From Acidobacteriota bacterium (GTDB taxonomy: Bacteria; Acidobacteriota; Thermoanaerobaculia; Gp7-AA8), in NCBI GenBank assembly GCA_021325515.1, contig JAJPHC010000039.1, positions 124,001 through 188,000 of the forward strand: a stretch of 64,000 nt of DNA. Reading direction: 5' to 3'. The position numbers were made by a program, and so were the translations under genes. The notes under the pieces were generated by a model. It ran no database searches and had not been told where the DNA came from. It saw nothing but the letters and a program-made list of their open reading frames with translations. Shown here piece after piece: positions 3,470 through 12,890 of the stretch (position 1 is its first letter; every line of letters starts with the position of its first letter).

Positions 3470-4588
3470 TCAGCCAGTGAAGAAATCCTTCACTTTCTCG
3501 AACACGCCCTTCTCGCCCGACCTCTCCTCGCCCGCCAGTTGCGCGAACTGCTCGAGCAGCGCGCGCTGCTCGTCGCTCATCGACGTCGGGATCTTCACCA
3601 CCGCATGCACGAAATGATCTCCGCGTCCCGAGCCATCGAGATACGGCACGCCCTTCCCCTTGAGGCGGAACACCTGATTCGGCTGCGTGCCGGCGGGGAC
3701 TCTCAGCATCTCGTCGCCATCGATCGTCGCGGTGCGGACCTCCGCGCCGAGTGCTGCCTGGGTGAAGCTAATCGTCTGCTCGGAGTGAATGTCGGAGTCG
3801 CGGCGCTGGAACTTCGGATGCTCGCGCACGGAGAGAAACACATAGAGATCGCCCGGCGGCCCGCCGTTGTGCCCTCCCTCTCCTTCACCGGCGACGCGCA
3901 GACGGGAACCGTCGTCGACCCCGGCGGGGACCTTCACCGAGATCTTCTTCTCTTCGCGAACGCGGCCAGCACCTTCGCAGGTCGCGCATGGATCTTTGAT
4001 CACCTTGCCCGCGCCGCCGCATTGCGGACACGTTCGGGCCACGGCGAAGAAGCCCTGCGTGAACCGGATCTGCCCTCGCCCGCCGCAACCGCCGCAGGTT
4101 TGCGGCTGCGTGCCGGGCTTCGCTCCCGTGCCGCTGCACGTGGGGCAAGTCGCCGCGCGCGGGATATCGAGCGTCACTTCCTTGCCGAACACTGCTTCTT
4201 CGAATGAGAGCGTGAGGTCGTAACGAAGATCGGCGCCACGAGCGGCGCGGGTTGCGCGGCGGCGTCCGGTACCAAAGAGGTCCCCGAATCCGAAGAGATC
4301 GCCGAGGATGTCGCCGAAGTCAGCGAACTGGCTCGGGTCGAAGCCGCCCATTCCGTTCAGGCCCTGATGGCCGTAACGGTCGTAGTGCGCACGCTTCTCC
4401 TCGTCGCTGAGGACTCCGTAGGCTTCCGCTGCTTCCTTGAATTTTTCTTCAGCGGTGGGATCGCCGGGATTCTTGTCCGGGTGGTACTGCATCGCAAGGC
4501 GGCGATACGCCTTCTTGATCTCGTCGACGGAGGCATTCTTCTGAATGCCGAGGACTTCGTAATAGTCGCGTTTTTCTGTCGTTGCCAT
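3470..4588 (-). CDS. dnaJ: chaperone protein DnaJ (type I Hsp40)
   Basis: 372 residues, the full type I layout. An N-terminal J domain carries YHPDKNPGD with the HPD triad at 36-38, which stimulates the DnaK ATPase. A Gly/Phe-rich linker (GFGDLFGTG) follows. Four zinc-binding CxxCxGxG-type repeats come next ([32 protein letters not shown]), then the two C-terminal substrate-binding beta domains and the dimerisation tail. It lies 36 bases after dnaK on the same strand. Expected to be under HrcA/CIRCE control as part of this operon. Confidence 0.98.
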
Positions 4589-4624: not shown

Positions 4625-6487
4625 CTAGCTCTTGTTGGGAGGCGCCTGCGCAGTGGATTCGGTGCTTGGCGCGCCGGGCTTGATGGGGTTGTACAGCATG
4701 ACGCTGGTCAGGATGCGTGCGGCCGATTGCATCTCGAAGATCGCATCGTTGATGCGCTGCTTGTCTTCCGCCGTGGAGAGCTCTTTGGCCCGCGCGAGCG
4801 TGGCACCGACCTTGTCGCGTTCGGTCTCGCTCAGCAGCTTTCCGAACTCCTTGAAGACCTTGTCATTCGTGTAGATCATTCCCTCGAGCTTGTTCTGCAG
4901 CATGCGCAGCTCGCGGCGCGATGCGTCGACGCGCTGCATCTCCGTCGCCTCGCTGATGATCCGGTCGATTTCGTCCTTGGTCAGGCCGCCGGCCGGATTG
5001 ATCTGCACGCCCTGCGATGCGCCGGTCGCCTGATCGCGCGCCGTGACGTTCACGATGCCGTTGGAGTCGATCGCAAACGTCACTTCGATCTGCGGCACAC
5101 CGCGCGGCGCGGGAGGAATGCCGAAGAGATCGAACTTGCCCAGCGAGTTGTTCTCGCGCGCGAACTCGCGCTCGCCCTGCAGCACGTGCACCTGCACCTT
5201 GCTCTGGTTGTCGGACACGGTCGTGAAGATGAGCGAGTTCTTCGTCGGAATCGTCGAGTTGCGCTCGATGAGCTTCGTGAAGAGCCCGCCGTGCGTCTCG
5301 ATGCCCAGCGACAGCGGCGTGACGTCGAGCAGCACCATGTCCTTGATGTCGCCGCGCATGATCGCGCCCTGAATCGCGGCACCGACGGCAACGACTTCAT
5401 CGGGATTGATGTTGCGATTCGGCTCTTTCCCGAACACGCGCTTCACCGCTTCGATGACCTTCGGCATCCGCGTCTGGCCGCCGACGAGCACGACTTCGTC
5501 GATCTTCTCCGGCGTCACGCCGGCCGCTTTCAGTGCGTCGTTGACGGGACCGATGGTCCGCTCGATGAGATCGTCGACCATCTTCTCGAACTCGCGGCGC
5601 GTGAGGACGGCGTTGAAGTGCTTGGGGCCGGAGGCATCAGCGGAGATAAAGGGCAGCGTGATGCGGCTCTCGTCCGCCGTCGACAGTTCGCACTTCGCGC
5701 GCTCCGCGGCCTCTTTCAGCCGCTGCAGCGCCATGCGATCGTCGCGGAGATCGATGTTCGTGTCCTTCTGGAACGTCTCGATCATCCAGTCCATGATCCG
5801 CTTGTCGAAGTCTTCGCCGCCGAGGTAGGTGTCGCCTGAGGTGGAGAGGACTTCGAAGAGACCATCCTCGAGCTTGAGGATCGAGATATCGAACGTGCCG
5901 CCGCCGAGGTCGTAGACCGCGATCAACTGGTTGGCCTTGTTGTCGAGACCATACGCGAGCGCTGCAGCGGTCGGCTCGTTGATGATGCGCGAGACTTCGA
6001 GTCCGGCGATCTTGCCCGCATCGCGCGTCGCCTGGCGCTGGGAGTCGTTGAAGTAGGCCGGAACGGTGATGATCGCCTCGGTCACCGGCTCGCCGAGGAA
6101 GTCCTCGGCGAAGGCCTTGATCTCCATCAGGACGAAGGCGGAGACCTCTTCCGGCGAATAGTCGTGATCGCGGATCTTCACCTTCAGGTCTCCGTTGTTC
6201 GCGGAGACGATCTGATAGGGAAGCACCTGTTTCGCCTTCGATGCTTCTTCGGAGTCGTACTTGCGGCCGATGAGCCGCTTGATGGCGAAGATCGTGTTGA
6301 ACGGATTGGTGATCGCCTGCCGCTTCGCGATCTGGCCAACGAGCCGCTCTCCATCCTCGGTGAATCCGACGACGGACGGCGTGGTCCTGCTTCCCTCACG
6401 GTTCGGGATGACCTGCGGCGTCGTCACGTCGACGACAGCGACACAGGAATTCGTGGTCCCGAGATCGATTCCAATGATTTTCGGCAT
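4625..6487 (-). CDS. dnaK: molecular chaperone DnaK (Hsp70)
   Basis: 620 residues. The N-terminal ATPase domain starts PKIIGIDLGTTNSCVAVVD and contains the phosphate loop VYDLGGGTFDIS and LVGGQTRMPKV. The linker region VLLDVTPLSLGIET leads into the substrate-binding beta domain and helical lid. The C-terminus ends in a short Pro/Ser/Thr/Ala-rich tail and NKS, without the acidic EEV-like tail common in DnaK proteins. Operon partner of GrpE (upstream) and DnaJ (downstream); the three form the cytoplasmic refolding machine. Confidence 0.98.
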   Translation of the reverse strand: MPKIIGIDLGTTNSCVAVVDVTTPQVIPNREGSRTTPSVVGFTEDGERLVGQIAKRQAITNPFNTIFAIKRLIGRKYDSEEASKAKQVLPYQIVSANNGDLKVKIRDHDYSPEEVSAFVLMEIKAFAEDFLGEPVTEAIITVPAYFNDSQRQATRDAGKIAGLEVSRIINEPTAAALAYGLDNKANQLIAVYDLGGGTFDISILKLEDGLFEVLSTSGDTYLGGEDFDKRIMDWMIETFQKDTNIDLRDDRMALQRLKEAAERAKCELSTADESRITLPFISADASGPKHFNAVLTRREFEKMVDDLIERTIGPVNDALKAAGVTPEKIDEVVLVGGQTRMPKVIEAVKRVFGKEPNRNINPDEVVAVGAAIQGAIMRGDIKDMVLLDVTPLSLGIETHGGLFTKLIERNSTIPTKNSLIFTTVSDNQSKVQVHVLQGEREFARENNSLGKFDLFGIPPAPRGVPQIEVTFAIDSNGIVNVTARDQATGASQGVQINPAGGLTKDEIDRIISEATEMQRVDASRRELRMLQNKLEGMIYTNDKVFKEFGKLLSETERDKVGATLARAKELSTAEDKQRINDAIFEMQSAARILTSVMLYNPIKPGAPSTESTAQAPPNKS

Positions 6488-6533: not shown

Positions 6534-7172
6534 TTACGCCTGAGGCGGCGCGTCCCGTTCCGGACCGCCTACGGCCACTCTCACGAGCGCCGGCCGGAGC
6601 AGGCGGTCATGAAGGAAGTAGCCCTTCTGCAGAATTGCGACGACTGTGTGATTGGGAACGGTCGAGTCTTCCTCGCGCACGACCGCCTCATGGATGTTGG
6701 GGTCGAAGTGCACCCCGCTCTCTTCAATCGTCTTGAGACCGTTTTTCTGCAGTACGTCGAAAAGCTGTTTGTAGATGAGAAGTACGCCTTTGTGAAAATC
6801 GTCGCCCTCCTCCGCATGTTCCAGGGCGCGATCGAAGTTGTCGAGCACCGGGAGGAGGTCCTTGATGGCTCCCGCCAGCGCATATTTAAAGAAGTCCTGC
6901 TTTTCGCGCTCGGCGCGTTTACGGAAGTTATCAAAATCCGCCATCGTGCGCAGCACACGATCCTGCAGCGCCCGGTTCTGAGCGCGCAGCTCGTCGGACG
7001 CGGGTGCCGAACCGTCGGCAGCCCCCGCCGCGGCGTCGGGCGCAGCGGCCTCGGCCGCCGCTTCTTTCGCCGCTTCCTGCATCTCGCGCTCGATCTCCTC
7101 GATCGAGCCGCCGGTATCTTCGATGACGTAGCTGTCGTCGTCTTCGCCGGCTTTCGGAGTGTTGTCTTCCAT
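6534..7172 (-). CDS. grpE: nucleotide exchange factor GrpE
   Basis: 212 residues. An acidic, Ala-rich disordered N-terminus (about 1-65) is followed by the long dimer coiled coil (RAQNRALQDRVLRTMADFDNFRKRAEREK) and the beta-wing head containing the family signature ESGVHFDPNIHEAV and ILQKGYFLHDRLLRPALVRVA. It releases ADP from DnaK. Its ATG overlaps the hrcA stop as TGATG (one shared base), so translation is probably coupled. Confidence 0.97.
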   Translation of the reverse strand: MEDNTPKAGEDDDSYVIEDTGGSIEEIEREMQEAAKEAAAEAAAPDAAAGAADGSAPASDELRAQNRALQDRVLRTMADFDNFRKRAEREKQDFFKYALAGAIKDLLPVLDNFDRALEHAEEGDDFHKGVLLIYKQLFDVLQKNGLKTIEESGVHFDPNIHEAVVREEDSTVPNHTVVAILQKGYFLHDRLLRPALVRVAVGGPERDAPPQA

Positions 7173-8242
7173 CAGCGATCCTGCTCCTGTTCTTCAATCT
7201 TGCGCGTCAGTGCGAGTCCCAGATAATCGACGAGCGGCGCCATCCGCGCGTACTCCATCCGCATGGGTCCGATGATGCCGACCATGCCGAGCGGGGCGCT
7301 GCTCGATCCATACCGCCGCGCAACAATGCTGAAATTGTGTACCTGCGTGAAGTCGCTTTCCGAGCCGATGAGGATCTGCAGGCCATCCTCGCTCAGAAAC
7401 GTGTTGAGAATCTCGATCAGCTTCTCTTTCTCCTGAAGCGCGAGGAACGTCCGGCGCAATGCATTCGCATCGGCGAACTCCGGCTTCGTGAGAATGGATG
7501 CCGCCCCTTCGACGAAGAGCTCGTGCTCGACCGGCGCGACATCGTTCACCGCTTCGATGCCGAGGGTGATCGTCTTCTGCAGCATCTGGTCGTGCAGCGC
7601 ACGCTCATCTTCGGTCATACGAATGAGCCGGCGGCGGATGCCGTCGAGAGTCATCCCGCTGAATTCGGCCGTGATGTAGCGGCCGATCTTCTCCAGTTCC
7701 TCGCGCTGGAACGTCTGCCGGGTATCGACGATCCGATTTACGACGACGCCGTTCGTACCGACGATGACGCACATGATGCGCGTTTCGGAGATGAGGACGA
7801 AGTCCATGCTGCGGATCGTGAACTGCAGAAGCGTCGGCATGAAGACGACGCCGATCTGATCGCTCAGTTTCGAAATGACACTCGATGCGAGGTGCAGGAT
7901 CTGCTCGATCTCGCCGGCATTCGCGACTTCGCCGTCGATCGTCTCGCGGTCGCGGCGCGAGAGGGCGTGCGACTTCATCAGATGATCGATGAAGAAGCGA
8001 TAGCCGCGGTCGGTAGGCACGCGACCTGCGGAGGTATGCGGCTGTGCGAGATATCCGAGATCCTCGAGGTCGGCCATGACGTTGCGCAGGCTGGCCGGAG
8101 AAAGCTGGAACTGCCCGCACTTCGACAGCGAGCGGGAGCTGATCGGCTCGCCCGTCGCCACGTGCTGGAGAATGATCGCCCGCAGCACGTCGCGCGCGCG
8201 GCTGTCGAGCTCGTCACCAGTCATCTCGAGTTTCGATACCAT
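7172..8242 (-). CDS. hrcA: heat-inducible transcription repressor HrcA
   Basis: About 356 residues. An N-terminal winged helix (ELDSRARDVLRAIILQHVATGEPISSRSL) binds CIRCE DNA; it includes the LSPASLRNVMADLEDLGYL recognition region and HTSAGRVPTDRGYRFF wing. A GAF-like domain and inserted domain follow. I place the start at ATG 8242, because an in-frame GTG at 8296 would lie upstream of the predicted transcription start and inside the CIRCE element. First gene of the hrcA-grpE-dnaK-dnaJ operon, and by family knowledge autoregulated. Confidence 0.96.
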   Translation of the reverse strand: MVSKLEMTGDELDSRARDVLRAIILQHVATGEPISSRSLSKCGQFQLSPASLRNVMADLEDLGYLAQPHTSAGRVPTDRGYRFFIDHLMKSHALSRRDRETIDGEVANAGEIEQILHLASSVISKLSDQIGVVFMPTLLQFTIRSMDFVLISETRIMCVIVGTNGVVVNRIVDTRQTFQREELEKIGRYITAEFSGMTLDGIRRRLIRMTEDERALHDQMLQKTITLGIEAVNDVAPVEHELFVEGAASILTKPEFADANALRRTFLALQEKEKLIEILNTFLSEDGLQILIGSESDFTQVHNFSIVARRYGSSSAPLGMVGIIGPMRMEYARMAPLVDYLGLALTRKIEEQEQDR

Positions 8243-8281
8243 CGAAGTAGCCTTGACGCCAGAGGAGATTGTCCTACACGC

Positions 8282-8310
8282 AGTTAGCACTCTCACGACG
8301 AGAGTGTCAA
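8282..8310 (-). promoter_or_regulatory. sigma70-type promoter of the hrcA operon, embedded in CIRCE
   Basis: On the minus strand TTGACA (8310-8305) and CTAACT (8287-8282, preceded by TG) are separated by 17 bases. Transcription would begin near 8275, leaving a leader of about 33 bases before the hrcA ATG. Both boxes lie inside or at the edge of the CIRCE palindrome, so HrcA binding would block RNA polymerase. Confidence 0.7.
8284..8310. promoter_or_regulatory. CIRCE operator (HrcA binding site)
   Basis: TTAGCACTC, nine spacer bases, then GAGTGTCAA. The left arm is the exact CIRCE consensus; the right arm differs from GAGTGCTAA at two positions, and this change creates the TTGACA -35 box on the minus strand. 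It lies between hrcA (minus) and the SurA-N-like gene (plus), whose first ATG begins 2 bases later. Confidence 0.9.
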
Positions 8311-8311
8311 G

Positions 8312-8974
8312 ATGAACGGACGGCGGATGACGATGATTTCACGACAGTTAGCGCGCGCCCTGGCCATCGTCCTGCTCGCTCTGAGCGCGCAGGGCGGCAC
8401 GATCGACCGGATCGCAGCGGTCATCGACCGCCAGGTGATCACGCTGAGCGAAGTCAATCAGATGGTCGCCCTCCGCTTCTTCGCGCGTGCTGCGAATCGC
8501 GACGAAAGCGAGTACCGCCACGACGTGCTCGAAGCGCTCATCGCGCAGGCGCTTCGTTACCGCGACGTCGAGCGATTCGGCGCGCAGGACATTCCGAAGG
8601 ACTCCATCGAAGCGCGTTTCAACGAGATGGCGGCACGATTCCCGTCGCCCGCTGCATTTGCCGCGACGATGTCGTCGGTCGAGCTGACACCCGACGAGGT
8701 GCGCGCGCTCGTCAAGCGGCAGCTTCAGGTCGAGGCCTACATCCAGGAGCGCTTCTCGCCGCTCGTCTTCATCTCCAATGAAGAGATCGAGACGTACTAC
8801 CGCGGGCCCTGGTCGGAGCAGCGCCGGCAGCGAGGACTGGCGATTCCTCCGCTCAACGACGTGCGCGACGAGATTCGCACGCTGCTGAAATCGGAGCGGC
8901 TCCAGAGCGAGATCGACAAGTGGACGGCGCAACTGCGCGCGCGCGCGAACGTCGACGTCTACGCCTGGAAATAG
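8312..8974 (+). CDS. SurA N-terminal-domain-like periplasmic chaperone without PPIase domain
   Basis: 220 residues. A basic start and hydrophobic run (LARALAIVLLALSAQG) form a signal peptide; then GTIDRIAAVIDRQVITLSEVNQ, the opening typical of SurA/PpiD-like proteins that hold outer-membrane proteins in the periplasm. The helical SurA_N region follows and the protein ends soon after, without any parvulin PPIase module. ATGs at 8312, 8327 and 8333 are possible starts; 8333 has GGCGG 6 bases before it. A possible TTGACG/TACACG promoter (8253-8280) would fire into the CIRCE element, so HrcA may control this gene too. Confidence 0.75.
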   Translation: MNGRRMTMISRQLARALAIVLLALSAQGGTIDRIAAVIDRQVITLSEVNQMVALRFFARAANRDESEYRHDVLEALIAQALRYRDVERFGAQDIPKDSIEARFNEMAARFPSPAAFAATMSSVELTPDEVRALVKRQLQVEAYIQERFSPLVFISNEEIETYYRGPWSEQRRQRGLAIPPLNDVRDEIRTLLKSERLQSEIDKWTAQLRARANVDVYAWK

Positions 8975-9000
8975 TACATGCGTCCTGGTGCAGCGCCGGG

Positions 9001-12890
<3,890 letters not shown>

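Follow-up and report, generated by a model that had tools for sequence, protein, structure and literature searches.

The hrcA-grpE-dnaK-dnaJ operon of a soil acidobacterium is preceded by a CIRCE operator that, at a probability we put at about two in three, is a chimera made by deletion, through which HrcA represses the operon at an ECF-type promoter. The window, that is the whole 64-kb stretch of DNA analysed here, contains the operon, the operator and a divergent gene on the operator's other side (Table 1).

Table 1. Features of the operator region and flanking genes (window positions)
Feature	Position	Strand	Remarks
CIRCE / HrcA operator	8284..8310	.	TTAGCACTC-TCACGACGA-GAGTGTCAA; spacer N9
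hrcA	7172..8242	-	probable ATG 8242, MVSKLEM...
grpE	6534..7172	-	profile match
dnaK	4625..6487	-	profile match
dnaJ	3470..4588	-	profile match
SurA core chaperone without parvulin domains	8333..8974	+	SurA_N and C-terminal helix, signal-peptide-like start; further in-frame ATGs at 8327 and 8312
TTGACA, probable relic of vegetative -35	8305..8310	-	promoter intact in 12 family members
ECF (SigH/SigR-type) promoter-like element, GAAAT-N18-GTT	8315..8340	-	-35 at 8340-8336, -10 at 8317-8315; position conserved in relatives
Predicted start of the ECF-type promoter	8305	-	inside the CIRCE; C. glutamicum SigH/SigE numbering, fifth -35 base at -31

The CIRCE upstream of hrcA

Compared with the 27-bp inverted repeat of the CIRCE consensus, TTAGCACTC-N9-GAGTGCTAA, the operator has two mismatches, both in the right arm, and its minus strand reads TTGACACTC-N9-GAGTGCTAA. 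It is the only CIRCE match with three or fewer mismatches in the window, and no such match arose in 100 dinucleotide shuffles. At the same threshold the organism's own genome (5.4 Mb) contains one further CIRCE, a perfect one upstream of the groES (Cpn10) gene. The first gene of the operon matches the HrcA profile (E 1.2e-50) and is followed by matches to GrpE, HSP70 and DnaJ, which places the operator ahead of chaperone genes in a genome that has hrcA. The first-pass annotation had described a CIRCE variant whose deviating right arm gives TTGACA on the minus strand and which faces two genes, hrcA on the minus strand and a SurA_N-like gene on the plus strand; all of this is borne out. The sequence evidence supports the reading of this element as a genuine HrcA-type operator serving the dnaK operon, at which HrcA binding and repression are predicted.

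Arrangement in relatives and the proposed deletion

A search for HrcA in 60 genomes, of which 59 were relatives and one was the window's own, succeeded in 58. Seventeen of the relatives belong to the same family, and family-wide searches cover 18 genomes, the own genome (G000) included. Read in the direction of hrcA, 12 family members have TTGACA-N17/18-TANNNT followed by a palindrome at CIRCE spacing, which differs from CIRCE at 0 to 5 positions and whose first base falls between -7 and +5 relative to the vegetative start expected there. In G000 and G001 the TANNNT -10 is lacking; TTGACACTC-N9-GAGTGCTAA stands in its place, and the alignment shows that these two genomes miss the intervening block. 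Two more genomes, G014 and G007, are otherwise rearranged.

The -35 region TTGACACTC is nearly the same as the CIRCE arm TTGGCACTC, suggesting that a deletion between these repeats joined them. Eight of nine bases are alike in G011, G002, G005 and G012, and 7, 6 and 5 of nine in G003, G016 and G009, respectively; joining the -35 half-site to the CIRCE arm in the compared relatives would delete 27-36 bp. As the first 12 bases of the window's element, TTGACACTCTCG, are identical to the -35 region of G011, G002, G005 and G012, the copy retained is probably that of the -35. The operator would then be chimeric, its plus-strand left arm being the old CIRCE arm and its right arm the old -35 region. 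Three genomes with the separate arrangement (G012, G003 and G005) branch outside the rest of the tree with support of 97-98, which indicates that the fused state is derived. One deletion and two deletions (G000, G001) are indistinguishable, with backbone support of 24-50 and an AU p-value of 0.43.

Several other variants were seen at hrcA. No CIRCE was found before hrcA in G014 (L014) or in G006 (L022), where the contig ends 37 bp upstream. Of the CIRCE-like palindromes before hrcA in the 32 class members that lie outside the family, the two best, in G041 (L026) and G032 (L029), have 5 and 1 mismatches, and only that of G032 is within three mismatches. In three genomes of genus g5 (G013, G004 and G017; L004, L005 and L006) the arms of the hrcA operator are changed symmetrically (TTAGCGGTC/GACCGCTTA and similar) and the palindrome is kept. 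A switch in HrcA specificity was considered for these genomes and rejected, since all three have a perfect CIRCE at groES. Finally, the record L076 (JAHFCS010000367.1), filed under a Gemmatimonadetes MAG, groups by its hrcA, grpE, dnaK and SurA-like genes with the acidobacterial family; its filing is probably a binning error.

TTGACA and the missing -10

The first-pass annotation had gone further and treated operator and promoter as one, with the far edge of the palindrome as the -10. According to that reading, CIRCE is itself a vegetative promoter, contested by HrcA and RNA polymerase. In its favour, TTGACA matches the -35 perfectly, the far edge offers either CTAACT or, with a TGN preceding TAACTG, the extended -10 TGC-TAACTG, and there is a published precedent in groEL2 of Myxococcus xanthus, where CIRCE lies over the -35 region. 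The hexamers found at spacers of 15 to 19 bp from TTGACA (TGCTAA, GCTAAC, CTAACT, TAACTG and AACTGC) do not bear this out: none has T12-A11-T7, and nothing like TANNNT occurs at 16-18 bp. We scored them against a -10 matrix made from 26 family promoters (12 of hrcA and 14 of groES; two groES promoters and one hrcA promoter have the 18-bp spacer). The best candidate of the window reached -2.14, as do 28% of random sequences, and that of G001 reached -1.36, as do 23%. The lowest leave-one-out score among the 26 family promoters is 3.56, well above the window's best.

A generic promoter scan of positions 7000-10000 found no promoter either. Furthermore, TTGACA can be completely explained as a relic of the -35 that other family members retain, which counts against reading it as an active box. 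The -10 of the ancestral vegetative promoter is missing and a different promoter-like element lies just upstream, so the proposed identity of operator and promoter is unlikely. Most likely, judging from the comparison of sequences, TTGACA is now an operator arm, left over from an ancestral -35, and no longer a -35 box.

Another vegetative promoter could drive the operon from the hrcA side, with a CIRCE half overlapping its -35. The candidate, GTGAGA-N17-GACAAT from 8296, is the best sigma-70-like match on that strand (8/12), but its score is low and below the scan threshold, its -35 is poor, and the region is not common to the relatives in the alignment. We regard this as very improbable.

A promoter-like element of ECF type at hrcA

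The element just upstream, GAAAT-N18-GTT, has one mismatch to GGAAT-N18-GTT, the SigH/SigR-type promoter, and its GTT ends 4 bases before TTGACA and the operator. With at most one mismatch, 11 of 16 family members have this motif at hrcA, and the window is one of them; L076 matches it in its readable letters. It was not found at hrcA in G004, G013, G017 or G015; G008, which has no TTGACA anchor, and G006 and G010, in which the contig ends, were not scored. The offset of the element is identical in 8 of the 13 TTGACA-anchored genomes, with G016 three bases off, whereas 20,000 shuffles never placed more than one genome at any one offset. G014, G007 and L076 were left out of this test; G014 and G007, which have no TTGACA, retain the ECF-type element. 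It should be noted that the window's own -35 (GAAAT) shares letters with the SurA-like gene's start codons, and coding constraint may therefore account for some of it. A stricter pattern derived from the hrcA sites, GGAATC-N16-CGTTNACC, matched in just 3 of 18 genomes, in two of them at hrcA and in the third at another place.

Relative to the predicted start of this promoter, CIRCE occupies about -5 to +22 in the window, and in the 12 other family members the first base of the palindrome lies at +23 to +35, counted from the same point. HrcA probably sits on the start site of the ECF-type promoter in the window. We propose that the ancestral operon was preceded first by an ECF-type stress promoter (GGAAT-N18-GTT), then by a vegetative promoter (TTGACACTC...-N17-TANNNT), and last by a CIRCE lying at the start of the latter. 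A deletion of about 27-36 bp between the repeats would have joined the -35 to the surviving CIRCE half and taken out the vegetative -10. Relative to the ECF-type start, the operator would have shifted from about +23..+35 to about -5..+22. HrcA would then act directly to stop initiation at the ECF-type promoter, so that the operon would need stress-sigma activity and release of HrcA together.

The motif at other heat-shock genes

The motif was first noticed in these data and then tested on other genes. It is exact upstream of both clpB and a second dnaK in the window's own genome. Across the family, it precedes clpB in 15 of 15 genomes (13 exact, 2 with one mismatch), at 54-56 bp measured from the match start in 12 of them; G016, G010 and G006 were not scored for clpB, which is truncated or missing there. 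The second dnaK also has the motif in 15 of 15 genomes (nine exact with N18, two as GAAAT-N18, and four exact with N19 read from the sequences), and in 14 of these it lies 65-69 bp upstream of the ATG; here, for the same reason, G006, G012 and G014 were not scored.

Genome-wide, GGAAT-N17-S-GTTTA has 17 matches in the 18 genomes, compared to 2 for the reversed control. Five are before clpB, four before the second dnaK (HSP70), one before hrcA of G007 and seven elsewhere. The five clpB matches are expected, as the letters GTTTA came from the clpB sites. The second-dnaK and hrcA matches are independent of these letters, and the second dnaK had not been examined before.

Two further genes were tried as ECF targets and dropped. 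trxB has a one-mismatch match in only 1 of 15 genomes (G003) and no consistent site, and clpC, for which only 7 loci were looked at, has one-mismatch matches at scattered positions in two (the window's own genome and G008). An extension of the motif beyond the family, to other members of the class, was likewise rejected, with none at the family's position in 19 clpB and 32 hrcA regions: allowing one mismatch and N18, the motif occurs at 1 of 19 out-of-family clpB genes (G039; G018 and G048 have it with N19) and at 2 of 32 out-of-family hrcA genes (G029 and G044), about 340 bp upstream.

Some additional sequence features accompany the motif. At the clpB loci (L108 and others) an inverted repeat, GGCAAATATTGCC in G000 and similar elsewhere, lies between -35 and -10 and is perhaps a further repressor site. 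At the second dnaK (L225-L239), ACTCAG or GCTCAG directly precedes the GTT of the motif in 15 genomes. In G016 (L215) and G009 (L221), which are of one genus, GGAAT-N18-GTTTA is followed by a gene whose product combines a carboxypeptidase-regulatory-like domain with TPR repeats (by Pfam on L215 only), a possible further ECF target.

Candidate sigma factors

No RpoH over the cut-off was found in the 18 family genomes, and a sigma-32 promoter was rejected on this ground. SigH/SigR-type ECF sigma factors are known mainly from Actinobacteria. Each family genome has 12-27 sigma-type matches to choose from, and the one closest to the SigH_actino model is present at full length in 15 of 18 genomes, scoring 192-218 bits, below the cut-off of 251.55; G010 and G013 have pieces of it, and G006 has weaker matches only. 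In G000 the sigma reaches 210.6 bits to TIGR02947, again below that cut-off, and is followed by a protein with an RsrA match (TIGR03988, 48.9 bits, E 5.3e-13) below the cut-off of 62.5 and a zf-HC2 match above its cut-off. This pair, a SigH/SigR-like ECF sigma with an acidic C-terminal tail beyond the sigma domains and an RsrA-like zinc anti-sigma, is at L093:1430-2606 (G000:C42). Within 260 bp of the SigH-like gene the motif is absent in 14 of 15 genomes, with one inexact match in G011, so the usual autoregulation is not seen over that distance. We infer that the SigH-like sigma acts at the GGAAT-N18-GTT motif.

The divergent SurA-like gene

The product of the divergent gene is 213-220 aa long. 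Its own SurA_N match is below the Pfam cut-off, but 16 of 16 aligned members match SurA_N (Pfam, E 0.01 or better). SurA_N and SurA_N_3 are the only Pfam families among these 16 members, with no parvulin PPIase domain found. The N- and C-terminal core fold of SurA was recovered by a profile match to SurA in the PDB (E 2e-6), and the predicted model (pLDDT 87.6) matches SurA with a Foldseek E of 2.7e-6, a VIA Z of 13.5, and an rmsd of 4.0 over 165 residues. The named records with this gene are Acidobacteriota / Thermoanaerobaculia MAGs, plus L076.

The first-pass annotation had placed the start of this gene 2 bases from the operator, and the sequences offer several candidate starts. An ATG does lie one base from the operator (8312), but it is present in none of 13 aligned relatives, whereas an ATG equivalent to 8333, 22 nt from the operator, is common to G016, G009 and L076. 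G001, which shares the fused operator, has a likely start with a signal-peptide-like sequence 8 nt from the operator.

The suggestion of the first-pass annotation that HrcA uses this single site to control the SurA-like gene along with the DnaK operon is compatible with repression at the ECF-type promoter, and the geometry makes it possible: at 22 nt in the window or 8 nt in G001 before the probable start codon, the operator sits where the gene's promoter would have to be. The SurA-like gene is a conserved neighbour, divergent and adjacent to hrcA in 15 of 17 testable family members (L076 included). A divergent GGAAT-N19-GTT faces it exactly in G005 and with one mismatch in 7 of the other 14, but is absent in the window and in G001, and no promoter for the gene was recognisable in the window. 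G014 has the gene still adjacent although no CIRCE was found, and in G008 and G015 it lies 2-5 kb from hrcA without such a motif, indicating that the link between CIRCE and the SurA-like gene is not obligatory. Taken together, we regard dual control as a tentative proposal that is somewhat more likely to be wrong than right. In G018, a member of another family, the SurA-like gene is co-directional with hrcA and upstream of it.

Discussion

If HrcA acts at the ECF-type promoter as proposed, this case shows that resemblance between a -35 box and an operator half-site lets a repressor site pass from one promoter to another in a single step. A cautionary point also follows for annotation: a TTGACA inside a palindrome should not be taken as a promoter when there is no -10. 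The comparison also suggests that the heat-shock genes of this acidobacterial family, which has no recognisable sigma-32, are run by a SigH/SigR-type ECF sigma.

A wider scenario can be drawn, although we consider it speculative and unlikely. A SigH/SigR-type ECF sigma would have replaced sigma-32 in the heat shock response (dnaK operon, second dnaK and clpB) of a family without recognisable RpoH. The ancestral hrcA site would have been a bidirectional ECF promoter whose two directions share GTTAAC as a palindromic -10, with the cytoplasmic DnaK operon on one side, a periplasmic SurA core chaperone on the other, and HrcA over both. The window would represent this module after a repeat-mediated deletion made the vegetative -35 an operator arm.

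In a partial literature library, none of the matches listed concerned heat-shock promoters of Acidobacteria (CIRCE, HrcA, SigR/RsrA or ECF/SigH/dnaK), and nothing relevant was found that links HrcA/CIRCE with SurA. The SurA-like protein shares the N- and C-terminal core fold of SurA and SurA-like periplasmic chaperones and differs from SurA in that both parvulin domains are missing.

The operator resembles the CIRCE/HrcA systems of Bacillus subtilis and Geobacter in its consensus, in gene order and in its position ahead of hrcA; for Geobacter, PMC545781 gives candidate CIRCE sites at hrcA-grpE-dnaK-dnaJ and groESL. In contrast to these systems, one arm here appears to be a former -35 box, and the promoter beneath would be of the ECF type, not vegetative or sigma-32. 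CIRCE also overlaps the -35 region of groEL2 in M. xanthus (Zhuo 2018, as cited in PMC9040617). That promoter is described as a sigma-32 target, whereas the overlapped -35 of the window has no -10.

The proposed promoter resembles those of the actinobacterial SigH/SigR (RshA/RsrA) regulon for heat and disulfide stress. The dnaK and clpB targets are shared, and an RsrA-like anti-sigma adjoins the sigma gene in G000. PMC10012870 gives the C. glutamicum SigH consensus as GGAAt-N18-19-GTT and lists dnaK and clpB among SigH/SigE targets, and PMC3489674 describes HrcA and HspR as acting in addition to SigH in Corynebacterium. The family differs from the actinobacterial regulon in that no RpoH was found in it, trxB and clpC have no consistent motif, and no site was found within 260 bp before the sigma gene in 14 of 15 genomes.

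The nearest precedent that we found for the proposed SigH/HrcA logic is ruc (Rv0991c) of M. tuberculosis. SigH and HrcA sites overlap upstream of this gene and are proposed to compete, with HrcA repressing and SigH inducing (PMC7448276). While ruc is a small redox chaperone gene of an actinobacterium, the module described here would apply similar logic to the hrcA-dnaK operon of an acidobacterium, with an operator arm probably derived from a -35 box.
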